From Planctomycetaceae bacterium (lineage in GTDB: Bacteria; Planctomycetota; Planctomycetia; Pirellulales; Pirellulaceae), in assembly GCA_002723275.1 (NCBI GenBank), contig PBNZ01000041.1, forward strand, positions 64,602 through 128,601: 64,000 nucleotides of DNA. Direction: 5' to 3'. Shown piece by piece: positions 9,968 to 51,672 of the stretch (position 1 is the first letter of the stretch; each line of letters starts with the position of its first letter). Position numbers and translations under genes: made by a program. Under the pieces are notes generated by a model. The model did no database searches. It was not told the DNA's origin and was given only the letters and a program-made list of their open reading frames with translations.

Positions 9968-10459
9968 CTAGCGAGCCGACCAGATCCATTGAGCCCACTG
10001 CCCATTGTTCTCATCCACGGCTATGGACAGTCTTTCGGGTTGGGCGCATCCGAGTGATGCGACCTCGGCAAGCAACTGCTCACCTAGATATTTGGCCAAG
10101 AGCTCAGCGGTGGTATTTGTAACGGGCAACAAAACACAATCTTCGCGAGGAAAAACCCAACGTCGATCTTCAAAGGTAGCCACCACTTCTCGTTCACTCG
10201 CGACGACCTTAATTTGCTGATGCTTTGTCGGCAGGATAACGTGATGATCCCAGTCGTCGACCATTCGTTTAAGACTATCACGCAGGGCGATAAAATCGAT
10301 CACGTACTGATTTTCATCCAACGGCCCATCAACTTCCGCTTCAATCCGATAATTGTGACCATGGAGTCGCTCACAGATATTTCCATTGAACGTAATAAAA
10401 TGCGCTGCGCTGAAGACGAGATAGTCTTTGGTCAGTTTGACTCGATACGATTCGCTCAT
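9968..10459 (-). CDS. 6-pyruvoyl-tetrahydropterin synthase / QueD family protein
   Basis: A 163-residue protein of the T-fold pterin family. Visible hallmarks are the zinc histidine in FSAAHFI, the CERLHGHNYR segment with catalytic Cys followed by HGH, VIDFIALRDSLK, the DHHVILP histidine, and NTTAELLAKYL. The CxxxHGH form is the one seen in QueD (6-carboxytetrahydropterin synthase) and PTPS. The ATG at 10459 follows GGATGAAG at good spacing; the upstream extension to 10522 overlaps the previous gene and lacks family similarity. Only 4 bases separate it from the CitG-like gene upstream, so the two are likely translated together. It may act in queuosine synthesis, but its partner suggests a pterin for the methanopterin-like cofactor instead. 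No queC, queE or queF is visible in the window. Confidence 0.85.
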   Translation of the reverse strand: MSESYRVKLTKDYLVFSAAHFITFNGNICERLHGHNYRIEAEVDGPLDENQYVIDFIALRDSLKRMVDDWDHHVILPTKHQQIKVVASEREVVATFEDRRWVFPREDCVLLPVTNTTAELLAKYLGEQLLAEVASLGCAQPERLSIAVDENNGQWAQWIWSAR

Positions 10460-10463
10460 AGCT

Positions 10464-11306
10464 TCATCCAAACGGTGGCTTGATTTTGTTTTCACATAGC
10501 AACACAAAGAGTCCGGCGGCAATCAGGTCCGCGGTCGTGCCAGGGTTTCGACGATGCCCGTCACACCGCAACCAAAAATCGAGATCGGCCAGAGCTCGTT
10601 CGTAGTTCTCCGTCCCTGGCTCGCCGGCGGCAAGGACTCCCGCAGCTCGAACGGAAGCCTCTGTTGCAAGCTCGACTCCACATTTTCGACCAATCAGGCT
10701 GTCAGGATACCGACTCATTAATGTCACATGGGCCGAGACGATTCGCTGGGGAAGCGTCATGCGATCGCCTTGCTCCAGCAGCGGCACGACCTCTTCAAAA
10801 ATCTCACCGAAACCGTTGTTATATTGCTTCGCGATCAAATCCCGGTGAGCGGCTTCATGCATGGCTTCCAGCAGATTGTCGGGCGGATCCTGTTGGACAT
10901 CGTGCGTGGCTACCTGCTCTCCCTTTGGCTGCAGGCCTCCCGGAGCGGCGAGTCGAATAGCCTCATACACTGCAACGGCATCCGCAGCATCCATGGCCGC
11001 AAGAACATCCGCAAGTGAATTCCGCACATCCCCTCCGCGATGGGCGACGGCCAATGGCGAAAGCAACAGAACGATACCAAGATTCGTGTTTTCCCGCGTG
11101 ACCTGCCCCGTTGCTTGAACGGATTGCAGGACCGTTGCCCCTACTCTTTCCGCCCGCTCCATGACCGGGCCGAGAGCAACCGCACTCGCCACAAAATCGT
11201 TGAGTGACGTATCTTCGAAATCAGCCCCACGATGAACGTTGCCTGGCTTCGGCGCCGTCACCTCAAGTAAACAAGCGAGCGTTGCACATTGCCCCGTTGT
11301 CAACAT
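10464..11306 (-). CDS. CitG/MdcB-like (triphosphoribosyl-dephospho-CoA synthase family) protein
   Basis: A 280-residue protein. The N-terminal TAPKPGNVHRGADFEDTSLNDF is the signature of the CitG/MdcB family, and the conserved NTNLGIVLLLSPLA follows near residue 75. Classical members make the prosthetic group of citrate lyase or malonate decarboxylase, but neither enzyme is encoded here. As I recall, relatives (COG1767) occur in the methanopterin/methanofuran gene set of methylotrophs. Its 4-base spacing to the pterin synthase homologue downstream fits that. The ATG at 11306 is chosen; a TTG three codons upstream (11315) is equally possible, and neither has a clear ribosome binding site. Family call is firm, the reaction is not. 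Confidence 0.8.
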   Translation of the reverse strand: MLTTGQCATLACLLEVTAPKPGNVHRGADFEDTSLNDFVASAVALGPVMERAERVGATVLQSVQATGQVTRENTNLGIVLLLSPLAVAHRGGDVRNSLADVLAAMDAADAVAVYEAIRLAAPGGLQPKGEQVATHDVQQDPPDNLLEAMHEAAHRDLIAKQYNNGFGEIFEEVVPLLEQGDRMTLPQRIVSAHVTLMSRYPDSLIGRKCGVELATEASVRAAGVLAAGEPGTENYERALADLDFWLRCDGHRRNPGTTADLIAAGLFVLLCENKIKPPFG

Positions 11307-11346
11307 TTTCGTCAAACCGCAAGCAAAAACGGAGGAACGTTTTGTT

Positions 11347-44455: not shown

Positions 44456-45610
44456 TTACTTGCTGCCTTGATCAACTTTCTTACCGTCAGGTCGATTTTC
44501 GAGCAACCAATCTTCAAGGACGACATGTTTGATCAACGGGGCACGCAACAATCCAGCCCGGTTCGGCAACAGACTCTGCAACCAAGGACGTCGAATGACC
44601 GCTGAAAGAGCCCGCATGCGTCGGCTCCCGCGAGTCTGAGCTTCCACGTTTGCAGCGAGACGTTCAAACGTCGCTGGCAAAATATTTGGCTCCGGACCGA
44701 TGTGAACGATCGTATCCACACCCATTTTGAGAAGTTCATCGACGACATTCCACAGCTGTTGGGGATGGTCAATCCACTGCGAAATAATTTCTCGGGAATT
44801 AAACTGATGATAAGACTTCTCCCCGGTAACCATCGACAACACAGGCGGATTCGGCTCGGTGAATCCGCCGGGTAATGTATGCAGCATGACAGACGCTCGA
44901 TCCGTAATATTGCGTTGCCAGACAATCGGCGTGTGCAAGGGCGGCCAACGATGCTCGTTCATTCGCAAATAAATTCGATGAGGAAGAATCTCACTTAGGT
45001 GAGCCTTCAATCGTTTCACCGTATCCTCAGTCCCCATCACCAGTAGCGAGTTGGGGGACAGCCACGCTGACACACCGATCACTCCCCTGCCTTCGGCGTT
45101 CAGATGCAAACAGACTTCTCTCACGCGATCGCTCGAGATTGAGTCACCCCGTGAAAAGAGGACTCCCATCGACACGTTTTTTGCCAGATCAGCGCAATCT
45201 GCAGCCATTGCCAATGGAATCCGAATGGCATCACTCGTTTCATAGACACCGCCCGCGACAAGAGCAGAAATTTCTCCAAGACTGAAGCCAATGGACACTC
45301 GAGCCTGCGAGTAGTCGATCCCATGGAATTCCGACAGCAATTTCAATTGAGCGATTTCCATGGAGACGATCAATGCAATCGCTTCATCGTAGACCTCCAG
45401 GGTGGTATCTTCACCGCGTTCAACCCGGCCAACAAGGTCAACCTTGCGTTCGACCACACTTTCACAGACCTCAGAAGCCTCCTTGAGTGCCTGCTGGACC
45501 AATGGCCCGTAGACATCGTGCTGGAGAAGCTCACGACTGCGTCCCATGTTGGTCACGTTATATCCGCGAAACGCCAGCACGCCATTCGATAGTTGCAGTT
45601 CATCACTCAT
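44456..45610 (-). CDS. FabD-like discrete acyltransferase
   Basis: A 384-residue protein of the malonyl-CoA:ACP transacylase fold. The nucleophile is Ser110 in GFSLGE (canonical GHSLGE, His replaced by Phe), and the second catalytic residue is probably His226 in PPLHTPIV. The arginine that grips the malonyl carboxylate in FabD (in DALRLVRLRG) aligns with Met135 in DAIRIPLAMAAD, so the enzyme may prefer an uncharged acyl group. The protein is longer than FabD (about 310) by a C-terminal tail. The first 100 residues are also atypical. It is divergent from the SDR gene at 45875. It may act on a secondary-metabolite or fatty-acid carrier; no ACP gene is nearby. Confidence 0.65.
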   Translation of the reverse strand: MSDELQLSNGVLAFRGYNVTNMGRSRELLQHDVYGPLVQQALKEASEVCESVVERKVDLVGRVERGEDTTLEVYDEAIALIVSMEIAQLKLLSEFHGIDYSQARVSIGFSLGEISALVAGGVYETSDAIRIPLAMAADCADLAKNVSMGVLFSRGDSISSDRVREVCLHLNAEGRGVIGVSAWLSPNSLLVMGTEDTVKRLKAHLSEILPHRIYLRMNEHRWPPLHTPIVWQRNITDRASVMLHTLPGGFTEPNPPVLSMVTGEKSYHQFNSREIISQWIDHPQQLWNVVDELLKMGVDTIVHIGPEPNILPATFERLAANVEAQTRGSRRMRALSAVIRRPWLQSLLPNRAGLLRAPLIKHVVLEDWLLENRPDGKKVDQGSK

Positions 45611-45874: not shown

Positions 45875-46669
45875 ATGGAAGATAAGCATTTATTAAAAGG
45901 CAAAGTTGCAGTCGTCACCGGATCGTCGAGCGGGATTGGGGCAGCGATCGCTCTCGAATTGGCCGCGTCGCAGGCCCATGTCATTGTTCATGCGAGGTCG
46001 AGTCAGGCCGAGGGAGAACGTGTCGTCGCAGCGGTCCGAGAACACGGCGTCGAAAGCACGTTGATGCTGGCCGACATCTCTGATCCCATCGCCTGCCAAA
46101 GATTCATCGACGAAGCCTGGCAATGGCGAGAGGGAGTCGACATCTGGATCAACAACGCCGGCGCCGATGTCTTAACCGGCGAATACGTCTCGCTGAGCTT
46201 TGAAGACAAATTGGAAGTATTGTGGCAAGTTGACGTTCTCGGCACGATCCGTCTGTCACGGCTTGCCGGTGAAAGGATGATTCAACAAGCAGGCGTCATT
46301 ATCAATGTCGGCTGGGACCAGGCTGCCACCGGGATGGAGGGCGACAGCGGAGAGATGTTCTCAACGAGCAAGGGAGCCATCATGGCCTTTACACGTAGCT
46401 TGGCACGTTCGCTCGCACCGAACGTTCGCGTAAATTGTGTGGCTCCTGGCTGGATCAAGACGGCGTGGGGAGAACAAAGTTCGGACTATTGGAATCGACG
46501 TGCCGAGCAGGAATCGCTGTTAGGGCGATGGGGAACGCCACAAGACGTTGCCCAAGTCGTCGGATTCCTCGTTTCCCCAGCCGCTCGTTTCATCACCGGC
46601 GAAATCCTCCCCGTCAATGGAGGATTCGTTGGCTCTGCAACCGGACCATCGACTGATGAGCAAGCGTGA
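45875..46669 (+). CDS. SDR-family protein lacking the catalytic tyrosine
   Basis: A 264-residue classical SDR. TGSSSGIG (15-22) is the cofactor loop, NNAG (93-96) the structural motif and PGWIKTAWGE (191-200) the usual follow-on. In the catalytic YxxxK motif, Tyr is replaced by Phe162 (MFSTSK, Lys166 kept), and the usual serine region reads INVGWDQAATG without a serine at the expected place. It may therefore be a reductase with a changed mechanism or a binding protein. It opens a plus-strand gene run and overlaps the next gene by 14 bases, so it is translated with the C1-cofactor genes. Start ATG at 45875. Confidence 0.8.
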   Translation: MEDKHLLKGKVAVVTGSSSGIGAAIALELAASQAHVIVHARSSQAEGERVVAAVREHGVESTLMLADISDPIACQRFIDEAWQWREGVDIWINNAGADVLTGEYVSLSFEDKLEVLWQVDVLGTIRLSRLAGERMIQQAGVIINVGWDQAATGMEGDSGEMFSTSKGAIMAFTRSLARSLAPNVRVNCVAPGWIKTAWGEQSSDYWNRRAEQESLLGRWGTPQDVAQVVGFLVSPAARFITGEILPVNGGFVGSATGPSTDEQA

Positions 46670-48044
46670 CCACATTCATTTCGTAACGGGCCGCCTTGCA
46701 GAACATGCGTTGCGGGACATCGTCAAAGAGCTCGCTGCTAAGGTCGGCTTTGCCTATTCGATCGACGTTCTCCCGATCACGGTCGCGGCACTCATGACTC
46801 CCAAATGGGTTGCCCGCCATATCCAGATTCCGTCTGAGACTACTCGTATTGTTTTGCCCGGCTACTGCAACGGCGACCTCGCTCCACTGAAACAGTTATC
46901 CGATCTGCCGATCGACCTTGGTCCGCATGATCTGCGCGAACTGCCAACTCTCTTCGGTCATCAATCGGAGACGAGAAAAGACTACGGAAAATACTCGATT
47001 GAGATCCTCGCTGAGATTAATCACGCTCCACGACTTTCCCTGGCTGAAATTGAAAAGCACGCCAAGCAACTGGCCGCCGATGGTGCAGACCTCATTGATA
47101 TTGGTTGCGAACCGAGCCATACCTGGCAGAACGTTGGGGATGCCGTGCGGCTCCTCAAGGATCTCGGGTTAAGAGTTTCCATCGATAGCTTCAATGTGGT
47201 TGAAATCGAGGCGGCGGTCGAGGCGGGTGCAGAATTGGTTCTCTCGGTGAATAGCAGCAATCGCGAAGCGGCCTGCGATTGGGGATGCGAGGTGGTCGTC
47301 ATTCCCGACGACATTGAAACCCAGGCAGGTCTGGCAGAAACGACCGAGCTATTGACGGAACATCAGGTGCCCGTGCGACTGGACCCGATCCTTGAGCCCA
47401 TCGGCTGCGGTTTCACAAACAGTCTTCAAAGGTATTGGAAGGTCAGAGAACAATATCCCGACCTACCCATCATGATGGGAATTGGGAACATCACCGAACT
47501 GACCGATACCGACTCCCTGGGGATCAACTTGCTCCTATTGGCAATTTGCGAGGAGCTCAAAATCCACAGCGTGCTGACAACGCAGGTAATTAACTGGGCA
47601 AGATCGAGCGTACGTGAATGTGCTCTCGCAAGACAACTCGTCTACCACGCACACACCCATCGTGTCATTCCAAAGCACACGGCGCCGGAGCTGGTCGTCC
47701 TACGAGACCCACGTCTATTGCCGATGGGAGCGGAAAGTCTTGAGCGACTTTTCGAACAGATCAAAGACCCAAATTATCGGCTTTTCGCGGAAGACGGTCA
47801 GCTGCACATCATCAATTCAGAAGTGCACATCAGCGGCACGAATCCCTACGAATTATTTGCTCAGTTGATGGCCACGGAACCGAGGAATGTCGATCCGTCC
47901 CACGCATTCTATCTGGGCTATGAATTATCCAAGGCAGTGACCGCCTTGACTTTAGGCAAGCAATATCGTCAGGATGAAGCATTGGACTGGGGATTCCTGA
48001 CGATCCCCGAGAAGACTCATCGTAACCAGAAGCCCACCGACTGA
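46656..48044 (+). CDS. Dihydropteroate synthase-related protein (DUF6513 N-domain)
   Basis: A 462-residue protein. Residues 1-110 (HIHFVTGRLAEHALRDIVKELAAKVGF...) form the N-domain typical of this family, and residues about 115-330 a TIM barrel like dihydropteroate synthase (LAEINHAPRLSLAEIEKHAKQLAADGADLIDIGCEPS, LRVSIDSFNVVEIEAAVEAGAELVLSVNSSN, DPILEPIGCG). The C-domain is characteristic of the archaeal/methylotroph branch (TIGR00284-type). Such proteins include MfnF of methanofuran synthesis and candidates for the pterin-joining step of methanopterin, so the exact substrate is open. The ATG at 46656 begins the conserved domain, inside the SDR stop. pabB follows after 18 bases. Confidence 0.85.
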   Translation: MSKRDHIHFVTGRLAEHALRDIVKELAAKVGFAYSIDVLPITVAALMTPKWVARHIQIPSETTRIVLPGYCNGDLAPLKQLSDLPIDLGPHDLRELPTLFGHQSETRKDYGKYSIEILAEINHAPRLSLAEIEKHAKQLAADGADLIDIGCEPSHTWQNVGDAVRLLKDLGLRVSIDSFNVVEIEAAVEAGAELVLSVNSSNREAACDWGCEVVVIPDDIETQAGLAETTELLTEHQVPVRLDPILEPIGCGFTNSLQRYWKVREQYPDLPIMMGIGNITELTDTDSLGINLLLLAICEELKIHSVLTTQVINWARSSVRECALARQLVYHAHTHRVIPKHTAPELVVLRDPRLLPMGAESLERLFEQIKDPNYRLFAEDGQLHIINSEVHISGTNPYELFAQLMATEPRNVDPSHAFYLGYELSKAVTALTLGKQYRQDEALDWGFLTIPEKTHRNQKPTD

Positions 48045-48062
48045 TCGTCCGGAAACCGCAGG

Positions 48063-49502
48063 ATGCCGACTCCGCCCGTCTCCAAATTACCGGCATTCCA
48101 TCCACTCGTGCACGAGATTACACCGAGTCTTTCTCCGGCGGAGGTTTTCGACCGACTTGCTGCCCTGCCCCATTGCATCTTTTTCGACAGCGCACAGCAA
48201 GACTCCAAGTTAGGACGATTCTCTTATCTGGCCGCCGATCCGTTCAAGATGCTCCGCGTACCGGGTGGAAATGAGTCACCCTTTGTGCAATTCGAAAACC
48301 AGTTGAGCGATTGTTCCTTTGAACGGGTACCGGAACTGCCGGCCTTCCAAGGCGGGGCTGCTGGTTTATTCGGCTATGACCTGGGACACTCATGGGAAAG
48401 GCTCCCTCGAACTCGTTACAACGAGTTTGTTTTACCGGTACTCGCAGTAGGCTTTTACGATACGGTCATTGCTTTTGATCACGCCCAGGATCGCAGCTGG
48501 ATTATCGCTCAGGGGTGGCCTGAACGGACCCCGGAAAAACGGGAACGCCGAGCATCTGAACGACTGCAACAGTTTCGAGCTCTGTTGGAGAGCAATTCAA
48601 CCACCGCTCCAGAACGCCCTAACCAGCAAACAGTCAACCTTGCCGGAGAGCACTATCCAGTAACTCCGATTGGACGCCGGGGAACAACCGCACTGCGCAG
48701 TAATTTCTCATCGGATGGTTTCCAGGAAGCGGTCGCAGCGGCGATTGAATACATTCATGCAGGGGATTTATTTCAAGTCAATCTTGCGCAAAGATTGTTG
48801 CTACCTCAAAACTGTGATTCCATTGCACTCTACCAACGACTCCGAAAAGAAAACCCGGCCCCCTTCGCCGGCTTCTTCGATCTTGGCGATTATCAGATTG
48901 TGAGTGCATCACCGGAAAGGTTTCTTCAGGTCAATGAAGGTCGAGTGGAAACGCGTCCAATTAAGGGAACGCGCCGACGCATGACGGGCGCGGAGGCGGA
49001 GCTATTTAATGGCTCAGAGCTGAAACAGAGCGTCAAGGATCGAGCTGAAAACGTGATGATCGTCGACCTGATGCGAAATGATCTTTCGCGTGTTTGTGAG
49101 CCGGCATCGGTCGTCGTCGACCAGCTTTGTGAAGTCGAAAACTATCAATATGTGCAGCATCTCGTTTCCGCGGTAACCGGAAAGTTATCAGCAGGAAAAA
49201 CCGTTTTCGATCTCATCACCGCTTCCTTTCCAGGCGGTTCGATCACCGGAGCTCCCAAGGTGCGGGCGATGGAGGTCATTTCCACGCTCGAGCCGCATGC
49301 ACGCGGTGCTTATTGCGGTTCACTGGGCTATCTCACTCCCGACGGACATCTAGACCTGAGCATTCTGATTCGCACAATAACAGCAGGCGGCGGCTGGTGG
49401 CAGATGCCGGTCGGGGGCGGCATCGTGGCTCAATCCGATCCGGCTGACGAATATGCAGAAACGTGGCACAAGGCCGAAGGCCTGCTTCGCGCCGTGCTTT
49501 GA
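48063..49502 (+). CDS. pabB: Aminodeoxychorismate synthase component I
   Basis: A 479-residue chorismate-utilizing enzyme. The catalytic lysine is in PIKGT (Lys301), the PabB form, rather than PIAGT of anthranilate synthase. LRSNFSSDGFQEAVAAAIEYIHAGDLFQVNLAQR, KDRAENVMIVDLMRNDLSRVC and SITGAPKVRAMEVI are the other hallmarks. With PabA it makes 4-amino-4-deoxychorismate, the precursor of p-aminobenzoate, for folate and here probably methanopterin. ATG at 48063. It is followed by pabA after 22 bases. No pabC is seen in the window. Confidence 0.9.
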   Translation: MPTPPVSKLPAFHPLVHEITPSLSPAEVFDRLAALPHCIFFDSAQQDSKLGRFSYLAADPFKMLRVPGGNESPFVQFENQLSDCSFERVPELPAFQGGAAGLFGYDLGHSWERLPRTRYNEFVLPVLAVGFYDTVIAFDHAQDRSWIIAQGWPERTPEKRERRASERLQQFRALLESNSTTAPERPNQQTVNLAGEHYPVTPIGRRGTTALRSNFSSDGFQEAVAAAIEYIHAGDLFQVNLAQRLLLPQNCDSIALYQRLRKENPAPFAGFFDLGDYQIVSASPERFLQVNEGRVETRPIKGTRRRMTGAEAELFNGSELKQSVKDRAENVMIVDLMRNDLSRVCEPASVVVDQLCEVENYQYVQHLVSAVTGKLSAGKTVFDLITASFPGGSITGAPKVRAMEVISTLEPHARGAYCGSLGYLTPDGHLDLSILIRTITAGGGWWQMPVGGGIVAQSDPADEYAETWHKAEGLLRAVL

Positions 49503-49524
49503 CCGAATAACGATTGAACCGTTC

Positions 49525-50187
49525 ATGCTTCTTCTGATCGACAATTACGACAGCTTTGTCTACAACCTCGCTCGCTATTTGCAGCGACTGGGAGCGGAAA
49601 CGATTGTCGTGCGTAATGATGAAGTCTCGATCGAATGGATCCGTCGCAACCCCATCGAAGCGATCGTGTTGTCGCCTGGCCCGTGCACGCCTCAAGAGGC
49701 CGGCATGAGTCTCGAGATCGTGCAGGCGTTCGCCGATCATTTACCGCTGCTCGGAGTTTGCCTTGGACACCAGACCATTGCTGCTGCCTTTGGAGCCAAG
49801 ATCGTGCGAGCCAACAAACCCATGCACGGTCGTACAAGCCGAATTCATTGGCAGTCCGGCAGCCTGTTCGAGGGCCTTAATAATCCACTTGAGGTCGCAC
49901 GCTACCATTCGCTCGTCGTCGATGAGGCCTCATTGCCTGCCGAACTGCAAATCACCGCAAGGACCTCAGACGATACGATCATGGCTTTTGAGCACGAGTC
50001 ATTACCGATTGTGGGTTGGCAGTTTCATCCGGAATCGATTCTGACCGACGGTGGCTACTCGATGTTGGCTGCTTTTTTTCGTCGCGCCGGGATTCCCATG
50101 AGTTCACCCCTTCCCGATATGGCGAGTGAACAGCGTCGAAAAAAGATGATTCCAGAAGTCACTCCCAACCGGCCCATTACCTTTTAG
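49525..50187 (+). CDS. pabA: Aminodeoxychorismate synthase component II (glutamine amidotransferase)
   Basis: A 220-residue class I glutamine amidotransferase. LLIDNYDSFVYNLARYL is the start of the PabA/TrpG family, the nucleophile is Cys79 in GVCLGHQT, and His168 with Glu170 (WQFHPES) complete the triad. It releases ammonia from glutamine for PabB, directly upstream. The ATG at 49525 begins the conserved domain; the frame continues upstream into pabB. TrpG cannot be excluded from sequence alone, but the PabB PIKGT motif beside it argues for PabA. Confidence 0.92.
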   Translation: MLLLIDNYDSFVYNLARYLQRLGAETIVVRNDEVSIEWIRRNPIEAIVLSPGPCTPQEAGMSLEIVQAFADHLPLLGVCLGHQTIAAAFGAKIVRANKPMHGRTSRIHWQSGSLFEGLNNPLEVARYHSLVVDEASLPAELQITARTSDDTIMAFEHESLPIVGWQFHPESILTDGGYSMLAAFFRRAGIPMSSPLPDMASEQRRKKMIPEVTPNRPITF

Positions 50188-50202
50188 GAAGGAGTGCAAC
50201 CC

Positions 50203-50772
50203 TTGATCCTGGAAGGCATTGTCACAACGACGAATGAAGACGGCTCGCCGAATATCTCGCCGATGGGGCCGATCGTCGATCGTGAGGTCAGCAGCCTGGA
50301 ATTACGCCCCTATCAAACCTCGCGAACCTATCAGAACCTGAAACGTCACCCCGAAGGTATCTTTCACATTACGGACGATGTGGAATTGCTGGCCCGCTGT
50401 GCCGTGGGCAGCCCTCCCGTCTCGCCAACGGTAACACCTGCGACGGCCGTCAGTGGCTGGATCCTAACCAATAGTTGTCGCTGGTATGCATTTCGGGCGG
50501 TTAACATCGACGATGAGGAACCGAGGACGACGATTCGGTGTGAAATTATCGAACGGGGAAAAATCCGAGACTTCTTCGGCTTCAATCGTGCGAAACATGC
50601 GGTTCTGGAGGCAGCCATTCTCGCAACACGAGTGCACTTGTTACCGCGGGAAGAGATTCTACGTGAATTTGCACGTCTTGAGATACCGGTGCAAAAGACG
50701 GCAGGTGCCCAGGAAGAACGGGCATTTGAGTTTCTCAAGGAATACGTTCAAAATGGTGACTCTCGCGCTTAA
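50203..50772 (+). CDS. DUF447-family flavoprotein-like protein
   Basis: A 189-residue DUF447 protein (MILEGIVTTTNEDGSPNISPMGPIVDR is the family start; TSRTYQNLKRHPEGIFHITDDVELLARCAV follows). The split-barrel fold resembles FMN-binding flavin reductases. DUF447 occurs mainly in methanogens, methylotrophs and planctomycetes, in step with methanopterin genes, and it lies here between pabA and beta-RFAP synthase. The start is TTG at 50203, 8 bases after AGGAAGGAG (50186-50194); the GTG at 50194 lies inside that site. The reaction is unknown. Confidence 0.85.
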   Translation: MILEGIVTTTNEDGSPNISPMGPIVDREVSSLELRPYQTSRTYQNLKRHPEGIFHITDDVELLARCAVGSPPVSPTVTPATAVSGWILTNSCRWYAFRAVNIDDEEPRTTIRCEIIERGKIRDFFGFNRAKHAVLEAAILATRVHLLPREEILREFARLEIPVQKTAGAQEERAFEFLKEYVQNGDSRA

Positions 50773-50811
50773 TTTATCGTGCATCGACACCGCTGCCTGC
50801 CGGGCCACCTC

Positions 50812-51672
50812 ATGACTTGCCGCCGTACCCGAATATCAGCACCGGCACGACTCCATTTCGGCCTTCTGTCGTTTGGAAATCCAAAGGTAAAGCCCTACGG
50901 CGGGATAGGATTGATGGTATCTCGCCCGGCGACCGTGCTCACCGTCGAACCCTGCTCGCAGTTCACTGCTGACGGCATGCAGAGCGAACGCGTTCAGAAG
51001 TTCGCCAAGGTCTGGCAGCAACGTCGAGGCCTACCTTTGCCCGAATGCACGATTCGCGTCGAATCGGTGGCCCCGCAGCATGTTGGCCTCGGGAGCGGCA
51101 CCCAGTTGGCCATGTCGGTCGCGACCGCTCTGCACTGCGCAAGTGAGATACCGTTACCAACGGCATCGGAATTATCACGATCCGTCGGAAGGGGTCATCG
51201 CTCTTGCATCGGCAGCCATGGATTTTTTGAGGGAGGTTTACTTTTCGAACTGGGTCGTGAATCAGACGAGGCGTTCGCAGAAATCGAAGCGAGAGTTGAA
51301 CTACCCGAGGCTTGGCGAGTCGTACAGCTCCGCCCTCGACAACAGGCAGGCTTATCAGGTCATGCTGAGCTGATTGCATTCGACAAGCTTCCGGCGGTCC
51401 CAGCCGAAGCCACAAACGCGTTGCTAAATGAGGTTCGCGAAAACATTCTGCCAGCTGCCTGGGACGGTAACTTTTTGGAATTCAGCGAGAGCGTTTACCG
51501 TTACGGACTCCTCGCAGGGGAATGCTTTACCCAAGTTCAGGGTGGTCCTTTTGCGAACCCAACGCTGGATTCCTGGGTCCAAGACATTCGTGGGCATGGT
51601 GTCGCGGGAGTTGGACAAAGCTCGTGGGGGCCCAGTCTGTTCGTGCTCCAAGAAACAAAAGACGCTGCGTAG
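50812..51672 (+). CDS. mptG: Beta-ribofuranosylaminobenzene 5'-phosphate synthase
   Basis: A 286-residue GHMP-fold protein. RISAPARLHFGLLSFG is the family N-terminus, PQHVGLGSGTQLA (88-100) the GHMP loop, and AGLSGHAELIAFDKLP and GVGQSSWGPSLFV the beta-RFAP synthase signatures. The enzyme joins p-aminobenzoate with phosphoribosyl pyrophosphate, losing CO2 and pyrophosphate, in the committed step to the arylamine of methanopterin. pabB and pabA upstream supply the aminobenzoate. The ATG at 50812 begins the conserved domain; a GTG at 50779 is 11 codons longer, and neither has a strong ribosome site. It is the last gene of the operon. Confidence 0.9.
   Translation: MTCRRTRISAPARLHFGLLSFGNPKVKPYGGIGLMVSRPATVLTVEPCSQFTADGMQSERVQKFAKVWQQRRGLPLPECTIRVESVAPQHVGLGSGTQLAMSVATALHCASEIPLPTASELSRSVGRGHRSCIGSHGFFEGGLLFELGRESDEAFAEIEARVELPEAWRVVQLRPRQQAGLSGHAELIAFDKLPAVPAEATNALLNEVRENILPAAWDGNFLEFSESVYRYGLLAGECFTQVQGGPFANPTLDSWVQDIRGHGVAGVGQSSWGPSLFVLQETKDAA

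Follow-up and report, generated by a model that had tools for sequence, protein, structure and literature searches.

A probable tetrahydromethanopterin biosynthesis operon in a Planctomycetaceae bacterium encodes a short-chain reductase that is a candidate dihydromethanopterin reductase

A stretch of 64,000 nucleotides from a Planctomycetaceae bacterium of the order Pirellulales (assembly GCA_002723275.1, contig PBNZ01000041.1, positions 64,602 to 128,601), hereafter the window, carries at 45875-51672 on the + strand six genes encoding, in this order, a short-chain dehydrogenase/reductase (SDR), a protein resembling dihydropteroate synthase (DHPS), the aminodeoxychorismate synthase components PabB and PabA, a DUF447 protein and a homologue of beta-ribofuranosylaminobenzene 5'-phosphate (beta-RFAP) synthase. 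We are highly confident that these genes form an operon for the biosynthesis of tetrahydromethanopterin (H4MPT), an assignment that stands and that in outline was already known, as were the H4MPT genes of planctomycetes. The new part is a proposal for the SDR: this protein is a near-constant, specialised member of the operon, very likely serves a pterin step of the H4MPT pathway and has about an even chance of being the planctomycete dihydromethanopterin reductase, in which case it would represent a non-orthologous displacement in the operon slot held by the flavoprotein DmrB in proteobacteria. Planctomycete genes for C1 transfer by the H4MPT pathway were reportedly published in 2004, by Chistoserdova and by Bauer.

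The sequence-only reading had described six genes in one direction with overlaps or short gaps, and all six are present on the + strand and close-packed. With the starts chosen, the SDR gene (45875-46669; adh_short_C2, E 8.6e-48) overlaps the DHPS-like gene (46656-48044) by 14 bases and the subsequent gaps are of 18, 22, 6 and 6 bases; the DHPS-like gene was started at ATG 46656 (its open reading frame opens at 46548) and pabA at 49525 (open from 49453), and the gene of the beta-RFAP-synthase homologue has a possible alternative start at ATG 50812. The DHPS-like protein, a putative dihydropteroate-synthase analogue of the H4MPT branch, matches DUF6513 (2.4e-19, exceeding the Pfam cut-off), Pterin_bind (6.4e-9) and PterinBD-DUF4346 (8.7e-9), and does not reach the cut-offs of NCBIfam TIGR00284 (188.7 of 256.65) and NF040726 (97.6 of 328); a DUF6513 protein of Phyllobacterium is likewise under the TIGR00284 cut-off (198.3). 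PabB, component I of aminodeoxychorismate synthase (48063-49502; Chorismate_bind 1.5e-89), passes the pabB model TIGR00553 with 329.8 bits for a cut-off of 328.4, stays under the cut-offs of the trpE model TIGR00564 (375.6 of 517.7 bits) and of PabB-clade2 (357.6 of 408.55), and carries PIKGT, which we take to be the PabB form of this motif, PIAGT presumably being that of TrpE. PabA (49525-50187; GATase 2e-57), the glutamine amidotransferase component, passes TIGR00566, and the DUF447 protein (50194-50772), a companion of H4MPT genes, matches DUF447_N (2.3e-21) and DUF447_C (5.4e-14). The beta-RFAP-synthase homologue (50779-51672) is a divergent protein of the GHMP family whose match to NCBIfam BetaRFA-P_synth (7.3e-28) is far under the cut-off; its GxGxGTQ columns are kept in at least 97% of 43 sequences, and of the two p-aminobenzoate-binding residues of MTH0830, R26 corresponds, as we read the alignment, to Arg in 25 of the 43 and to Lys in the window, and D19 to Ser. 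According to the part of the source used here, the R26K variant of beta-RFAP synthase keeps its activity with a tenfold higher Michaelis constant (PMC6787355).

Assignment of these genes to methanopterin had been left dependent on further methanopterin-linked C1 genes in the genome, and such genes are indeed present. The source genome (G000) encodes Mch (C22:24673), with a RimK-type ATP-grasp gene beside it, two copies of Fae (C3:111610, adjoined by a methylene-H4MPT dehydrogenase of the Mpt_N type, and C15:11683) and two of FTR (C2:197773 and C19:36100). One member of each pair, FTR and Fae, scores lower than the other. Of 146 genomes of the order, 113 have DUF447, 114 Mch, 116 Fae and 111 DUF6513. 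The cross-tabulations for the order comprise 145 of these genomes: 111 have both Mch and DUF447, three only Mch, two only DUF447 and 29 neither; four of the five mismatches fall in genomes that are 65-80% complete, and the fifth, G210, is 93% complete. The Fisher p value of this association, 8e-25, overstates independence since the genomes are related to one another. The DHPS-like protein is most likely a member of the methanopterin branch, because it tracks Mch and neighbours the beta-RFAP-synthase homologue here and mch in two distant genomes (G064 and G117), and because proteobacterial clusters contain separate MfnB and MfnE-like genes. G135 (C1:4281908-4282168) and G236 (C301:26348-26602), which share a genus, have DUF6513 but none of Mch, Fae, DUF447 and the SDR, and a DHPS-like protein may therefore serve another pathway there.

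Comparison of gene order with other planctomycetes gave a consistent picture. Among 40 loci centred on DUF447 (20 from the family and 20 from other families of the order, all from DUF447-positive genomes), the full six-gene order was found in 20, and this recurrence is therefore more than chance. Blastopirellula marina DSM 3645 (L149) also has the full operon. The genes for PabA, DUF447 and RFAP synthase remain together, with the first three genes not adjacent to them, in several loci of the order and in G061, G064 and G117, three genomes from a draw of 119 across the phylum, and therefore look like one module. In G064 and G117, which belong to other families outside the class, the run on one strand is mch-RimK-CitG-PTPS-SDR-DHPS-like-pabB, with PCD after the SDR in G117.

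The distribution of the SDR was followed with a profile built from 24 operon SDRs (alignment A1). At E<=1e-55 the SDR was detected in 121 of the 146 genomes of the order, a count that includes fragments (G145, G201) and divergent f83 sequences, and in nine of the 119 phylum-draw genomes at E<=1e-52; these are the same nine that have DUF447, and they represent five families, with three of the genomes lying outside the class. The SDR was not found in the 110 phylum-draw genomes without DUF447; in the order and in the phylum draw alike, the best 17-21 first-look candidates per genome were scored. Within the order, SDR and DUF447 occur together in 108 genomes, DUF447 alone in five, the SDR alone in 13 and neither in 19. 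With all or nearly all candidates scored, eight DUF447-positive phylum genomes reach at least 334 bits on the profile and other SDRs at most 174, the divergent f83 sequences lying in between (214-278 bits), and in a tree 74 SDR rows are split from 22 other SDRs, two of them very long-branched, by a branch with 100/99 support. The SDR gene stands directly upstream (<500 bases) of DUF6513 in 70 of the 106 order genomes having both, and in G061 it likewise precedes the DHPS-like gene.

The active site of this SDR is atypical. Residues G146, W147, D148, Q149, F162 and K166 are invariant in the 24 sequences of A1, which were chosen by neighbourhood and similarity and give a fairer count than the larger alignment A3. 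The latter holds the best 80 of 487 sequences, from loci fetched with patterns including GWDQ and NAGxDxLTG, a choice that favours the GWDQ columns and not the Phe; in it N144, G146, W147, D148, G153 and K166 do not vary, 72 of 80 sequences have Q149, and the tyrosine position of YxxxK, by which classical SDRs are recognised, is Phe in 79 and Tyr in one, with the Lys kept. The lone sequence with Tyr, L147 from Planctomycetales bacterium 10988, is identical to L181 (G123) and its gene adjoins a DHPS-like gene. The classical motifs TGX3GXG and NNAG are present. In both HMMER alignments with FabG-type sequences WDQ appears as a three-residue insertion directly before the catalytic serine, whose place is taken by A150, and F162 and K166 align with the Tyr and Lys; on these alignments, the usual serine and tyrosine of SDRs both seem to be missing. 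The structure, predicted with confidence (mean predicted local distance difference test score 94.5), is FabG-like, with 4jro at Z 35.0 and a root-mean-square deviation of 2.2 over 241 residues, and the structure matches listed include 3itd, titled as the "inactive" Y167F form of a fungal 17beta-hydroxysteroid dehydrogenase. A natural Phe at the Tyr position speaks against ordinary carbonyl reduction and fits, without proving it, the reduction of a C=N bond. The GWDQ motif is carried by the SDRs of L139, L161 and L167; the divergent f83 sequences L176, L177 and L179 have it in altered form or gave no recognisable motif. The idea that Q149 is lost only together with H4MPT was rejected, as R, T or G also occupies this position in other sequences, among them L135, which has the full operon, and L198, from the DUF447-positive genome G087.

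In most of the proteobacterial clusters opened, a different protein occupies the same slot. Searches of plasmids with tblastn returned 35 records for DUF447 and 36 for the DHPS-like protein, all from proteobacteria by genus name, and 14 of the 36 were opened (L235-L248). The plasmids that bear these H4MPT clusters are large and come from Azospirillum, Rhizobium, Phyllobacterium and Paraburkholderia, among others; some plasmids are typed as mobilizable. A frame for a DmrB-type flavoprotein is located directly upstream of the DHPS-like gene in 11 of the 14 loci, six of which were used to build a flavoprotein profile and five found by it. Three of the flavoproteins score 93-109 bits (E 2e-26 to 2e-31) on NCBIfam TIGR02700, "dihydromethanopterin reductase (acceptor)", and 84-93 bits on the AfpA model TIGR02699, in both cases under the curated cut-off, and in six annotated pairs the flavoprotein and DHPS-like genes overlap by 4-22 bases, compared with 14 for the SDR gene in the window. 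DUF447 is present in 13 of the 14 loci (none was seen in L240 within its stretch) and directly follows DUF6513 in seven of eight annotated clusters.

Proteobacterial H4MPT islands such as those of Aquabacterium (pTB101), Azoarcus (pAZKH) and Phyllobacterium (p_unnamed4) resemble the planctomycete operon in the clustering of DUF6513 and DUF447 and in the order reductase-DUF6513-DUF447 with overlapping genes; mch, RimK, CitG and beta-RFAP synthase are each part of the cluster in at least one of the islands. In Aquabacterium the order is mch-RimK-CitG-(aldolase on the opposite strand)-flavoprotein-DUF6513-DUF447. They differ in having a DmrB-type flavoprotein instead of the SDR before DUF6513 and in lacking pabA and pabB between DUF6513 and DUF447, MfnB often coming after DUF447. 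DmrB/AfpA and DmrX (TIGR02699, TIGR02700) share with the SDR its gene position and the proposed reaction, although they are flavoproteins and belong to an unrelated family. The two reductases were not seen in each other's place: the SDR profile had no match at E<=1e-10 in the 14 proteobacterial loci and the flavoprotein profile none at E<=1e-3 in 160 planctomycete loci, both searches covering neighbourhoods and not genomes. The source genome gave no match to DmrB, AfpA or DmrX flavoproteins at E<=0.001, and in the 146 order genomes no match to AfpA TIGR02699 passed the cut-off; 13 were weak, the best with 24 bits, and this model also matches weakly in most control genomes.

These observations bear on a gap in the published pathway. 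Planctomycete H4MPT genes are a subject of the opinion article by Chistoserdova (2016, PMC5020050), and the excerpts of that article at hand name no planctomycete dihydromethanopterin reductase; they describe the Afp gene as unrecognised in planctomycetes and name DmrA, which Methylobacterium has instead, for that genus only. A 2018 study, in the portion that was available, places every planctomycete homologue of its tree with DfrA (PMC6193120). No proposal of an SDR for methanopterin biosynthesis was found among the open-licence papers searched.

From the observed gene content, conservation, co-occurrence, position and residue changes we infer a pathway, its catalytic steps and cofactor included, in which PabA and PabB would make aminodeoxychorismate towards p-aminobenzoate, the beta-RFAP-synthase homologue would join p-aminobenzoate and phosphoribosyl pyrophosphate, and the DHPS-like enzyme would couple a dihydropterin to the resulting arylamine. 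DUF447, present in nearly all Mch genomes of the order that were searched, would contribute a further step, and the SDR would perform the final dihydropterin reduction that the unrelated flavoprotein DmrB is proposed to carry out in proteobacteria. In this reaction NADPH would donate a hydride to the pterin C=N bond, and the enzyme would use the conserved Trp-Asp and Lys and do without the usual serine and tyrosine. There is precedent for pterin reduction by SDRs in FolM and PTR1 (PMC1971073).

Several points weigh against a dihydromethanopterin reductase role of the SDR. Its gene does not adjoin the DHPS-like gene in G024, G048, G069 and G105 of the phylum draw nor in 36 of the 106 order genomes mentioned above (nine of these have the two genes on opposite strands at a distance of 4-6.5 kb, one has them 1.8 Mb from each other, and 26 have them on separate contigs). 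At the strict cut-off the SDR was missing from six genomes with Mch (G141, G146, G155, G192, G226 and G238); four of them are 65-88% complete, G226 (92%) and G238 (90%) are harder to excuse, and a looser search of G141, G226 and G238 gave no clear orthologue. The absences of the SDR, in the order and in the phylum draw, rest on the limited set of first-look candidates already described. In three Azospirillum clusters, DmrB too is missing from the position before the DHPS-like gene. The source genome contains one dihydrofolate reductase (DHFR) of the FolA type, so another reductase is possible (no search for DmrA was made). Both sequence and fold of the SDR are closest to FabG-type reductases, and TGX3RXG, the motif of the pteridine reductases PTR1 and FolM, is absent from it, G20 being an invariant column in 80 sequences; it may therefore act like a pteridine reductase and yet stand outside that family by motif. 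PTR1 and FolM were not among the best 50-60 PDB matches listed for the SDR, which says little. Finally, 12 of the 29 order genomes without Mch and DUF447 keep the SDR at E<=1e-55, and a strict specificity of this protein for H4MPT was accordingly rejected.

The likeliest of the alternatives, although we consider it unlikely, is a FolM-like dihydropterin or dihydrofolate reductase: the substrate of the SDR would be a pterin precursor or dihydrofolate instead of dihydromethanopterin, and the protein would share the genes for p-aminobenzoate and pterin supply. The window protein is like FolM and PTR1, which have the motif TGX3RXG according to the part of the paper used here (PMC1971073), in its SDR fold and its pterin-linked neighbourhood, whereas it has TGX3GXG, a Phe for the catalytic Tyr and FabG-like best profile matches. 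PTPS and PCD, which adjoin the SDR gene in G064 and G117, are pterin enzymes, and in G136 and G153, both without Mch, Fae, DUF447, DUF6513 and FTR, the SDR gene is directly followed by pabB. The 12 SDR-positive genomes without Mch and DUF447 also lack Fae and DUF6513 and all lack FolA, and none of the five FolA-containing genomes that are devoid of Mch and DUF447 has the SDR. A strong ThyA match always comes with FolA (57 of 57, weak matches being excluded), and 57 of the 59 FolA genomes have one; organisms that use ThyX and have no known DHFR still require such an enzyme according to the same partial source (PMC1971073), and no search for ThyX was made. Against this, a further 12 order genomes have neither FolA nor the SDR, Mch or DUF447 (one of them, G203, 62% complete, has Fae), so that a clean complementarity of SDR and FolA was not found, and the contrast is not significant (Fisher p 0.059, among related genomes). 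Moreover, the SDR was not found in the 110 phylum genomes without DUF447, and the SDR retained in f83 genomes has Q149 changed or is divergent.

Taken as hints, these patterns of sequence occurrence point to a possible dihydrofolate role of the SDR in lineages without FolA. A broader and tentative proposal, to which we give somewhat more credit than to the FolM-like role and well less than an even chance, is that the SDR would be a new class of dihydropterin reductase without the serine and tyrosine, completing H4MPT in Planctomycetota instead of DmrA or DmrB and also supplying the missing DHFR where FolA and ThyA are absent, presumably in users of ThyX. Such a dual role, if true, would explain that some lineages keep the SDR after H4MPT loss.

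Another step of the pathway for which a reductase is required is the opening of the ribofuranosyl ring of the arylamine and its reduction to deoxyribitol, for which we know of no assigned enzyme. That the SDR performs this step, with DUF447 acting elsewhere, is doubtful. The SDR adjoins the DHPS-like gene, and an SDR without Tyr could conceivably add a hydride to a quinone-methide-like intermediate; however, all users of methanopterin need this step, and the 14 proteobacterial loci gave no SDR match (E<=1e-10) and contain DUF447 in 13 cases. Solved structures among DUF447 relatives are 3b5m (6.9e-57), 2iml, 2nr4 and 2ptf (MTH_863); 2ptf, as we understand it, binds FMN, and the DUF447 protein is presumably a flavin split barrel. 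Among 14 control genomes, DUF447 was detected in Methanocaldococcus jannaschii, Haloferax volcanii, Sulfolobus acidocaldarius and Methanosarcina acetivorans, Mch in all of these except Sulfolobus, Fae and FTR in both methanogens, and DUF6513 in Methanocaldococcus and Sulfolobus only; the partners are therefore not always together outside planctomycetes. So general a companion would suit a step common to all methanopterin-type cofactors, and our guess for DUF447 is the reductive opening of the ribofuranosyl group to ribitol. A PADLOC search of DUF447 gave no match, and no paper linking DUF447 with tetrahydromethanopterin was found among the open-licence papers searched.

It is equally doubtful that the SDR has no link to the pathway and persists here through synteny with the acyltransferase-like gene that lies divergent from it (44456-45610, - strand), a conserved neighbour with weak similarity to MdcH/FabD. 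This gene stays divergent from the SDR gene in many loci, including some in which no DHPS-like gene adjoins the pair (e.g., L089-L091, L097, L108 and L156), but the SDR occurs in the same nine of 119 phylum genomes as DUF447 and lies inside the mch run of G064 and G117, two genomes that gave no match for an acyltransferase-like gene; the acyltransferase-like gene of the window is probably outside the operon. That the six genes are a folate operon whose DHPS-like protein makes dihydropteroate is scarcely credible: PabA and PabB feed folate too and pabB stays beside the SDR after H4MPT gene loss in G136 and G153, yet G135 and G236 are the only genomes with DUF6513 among those that lack Mch and DUF447, and a folate-only reading was set aside, as DUF447, DUF6513, Fae and Mch are lost together.

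Elsewhere in the window, the genes for a PTPS-like pterin enzyme (9968-10522, - strand) and a CitG-like protein (10464-11315, - strand) overlap. CitG is found in the mch clusters of distant planctomycetes and of proteobacteria, and in the mch cluster of G064 and G117 a CitG/PTPS pair stands immediately before the SDR gene, with PTPS the nearer of the two; the pair at 9968-11315 appears to be a second piece of H4MPT biosynthesis in the window. Downstream of the operon, pdxJ follows after 231 bases, and dapA is also located there.

Planctomycetes figure in the debate on the origin of methanopterin-linked C1 metabolism, as the available excerpts of the 2016 opinion indicate (PMC5020050). With an SDR candidate that has an atypical active site and a phylum-wide tie to the pathway, the gap at dihydromethanopterin reductase becomes a simple assay question. 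If the proposal is true, one operon slot would be seen to have been filled by non-orthologous displacement, and the SDR could exemplify the reduction of a C=N bond without the SDR tyrosine.

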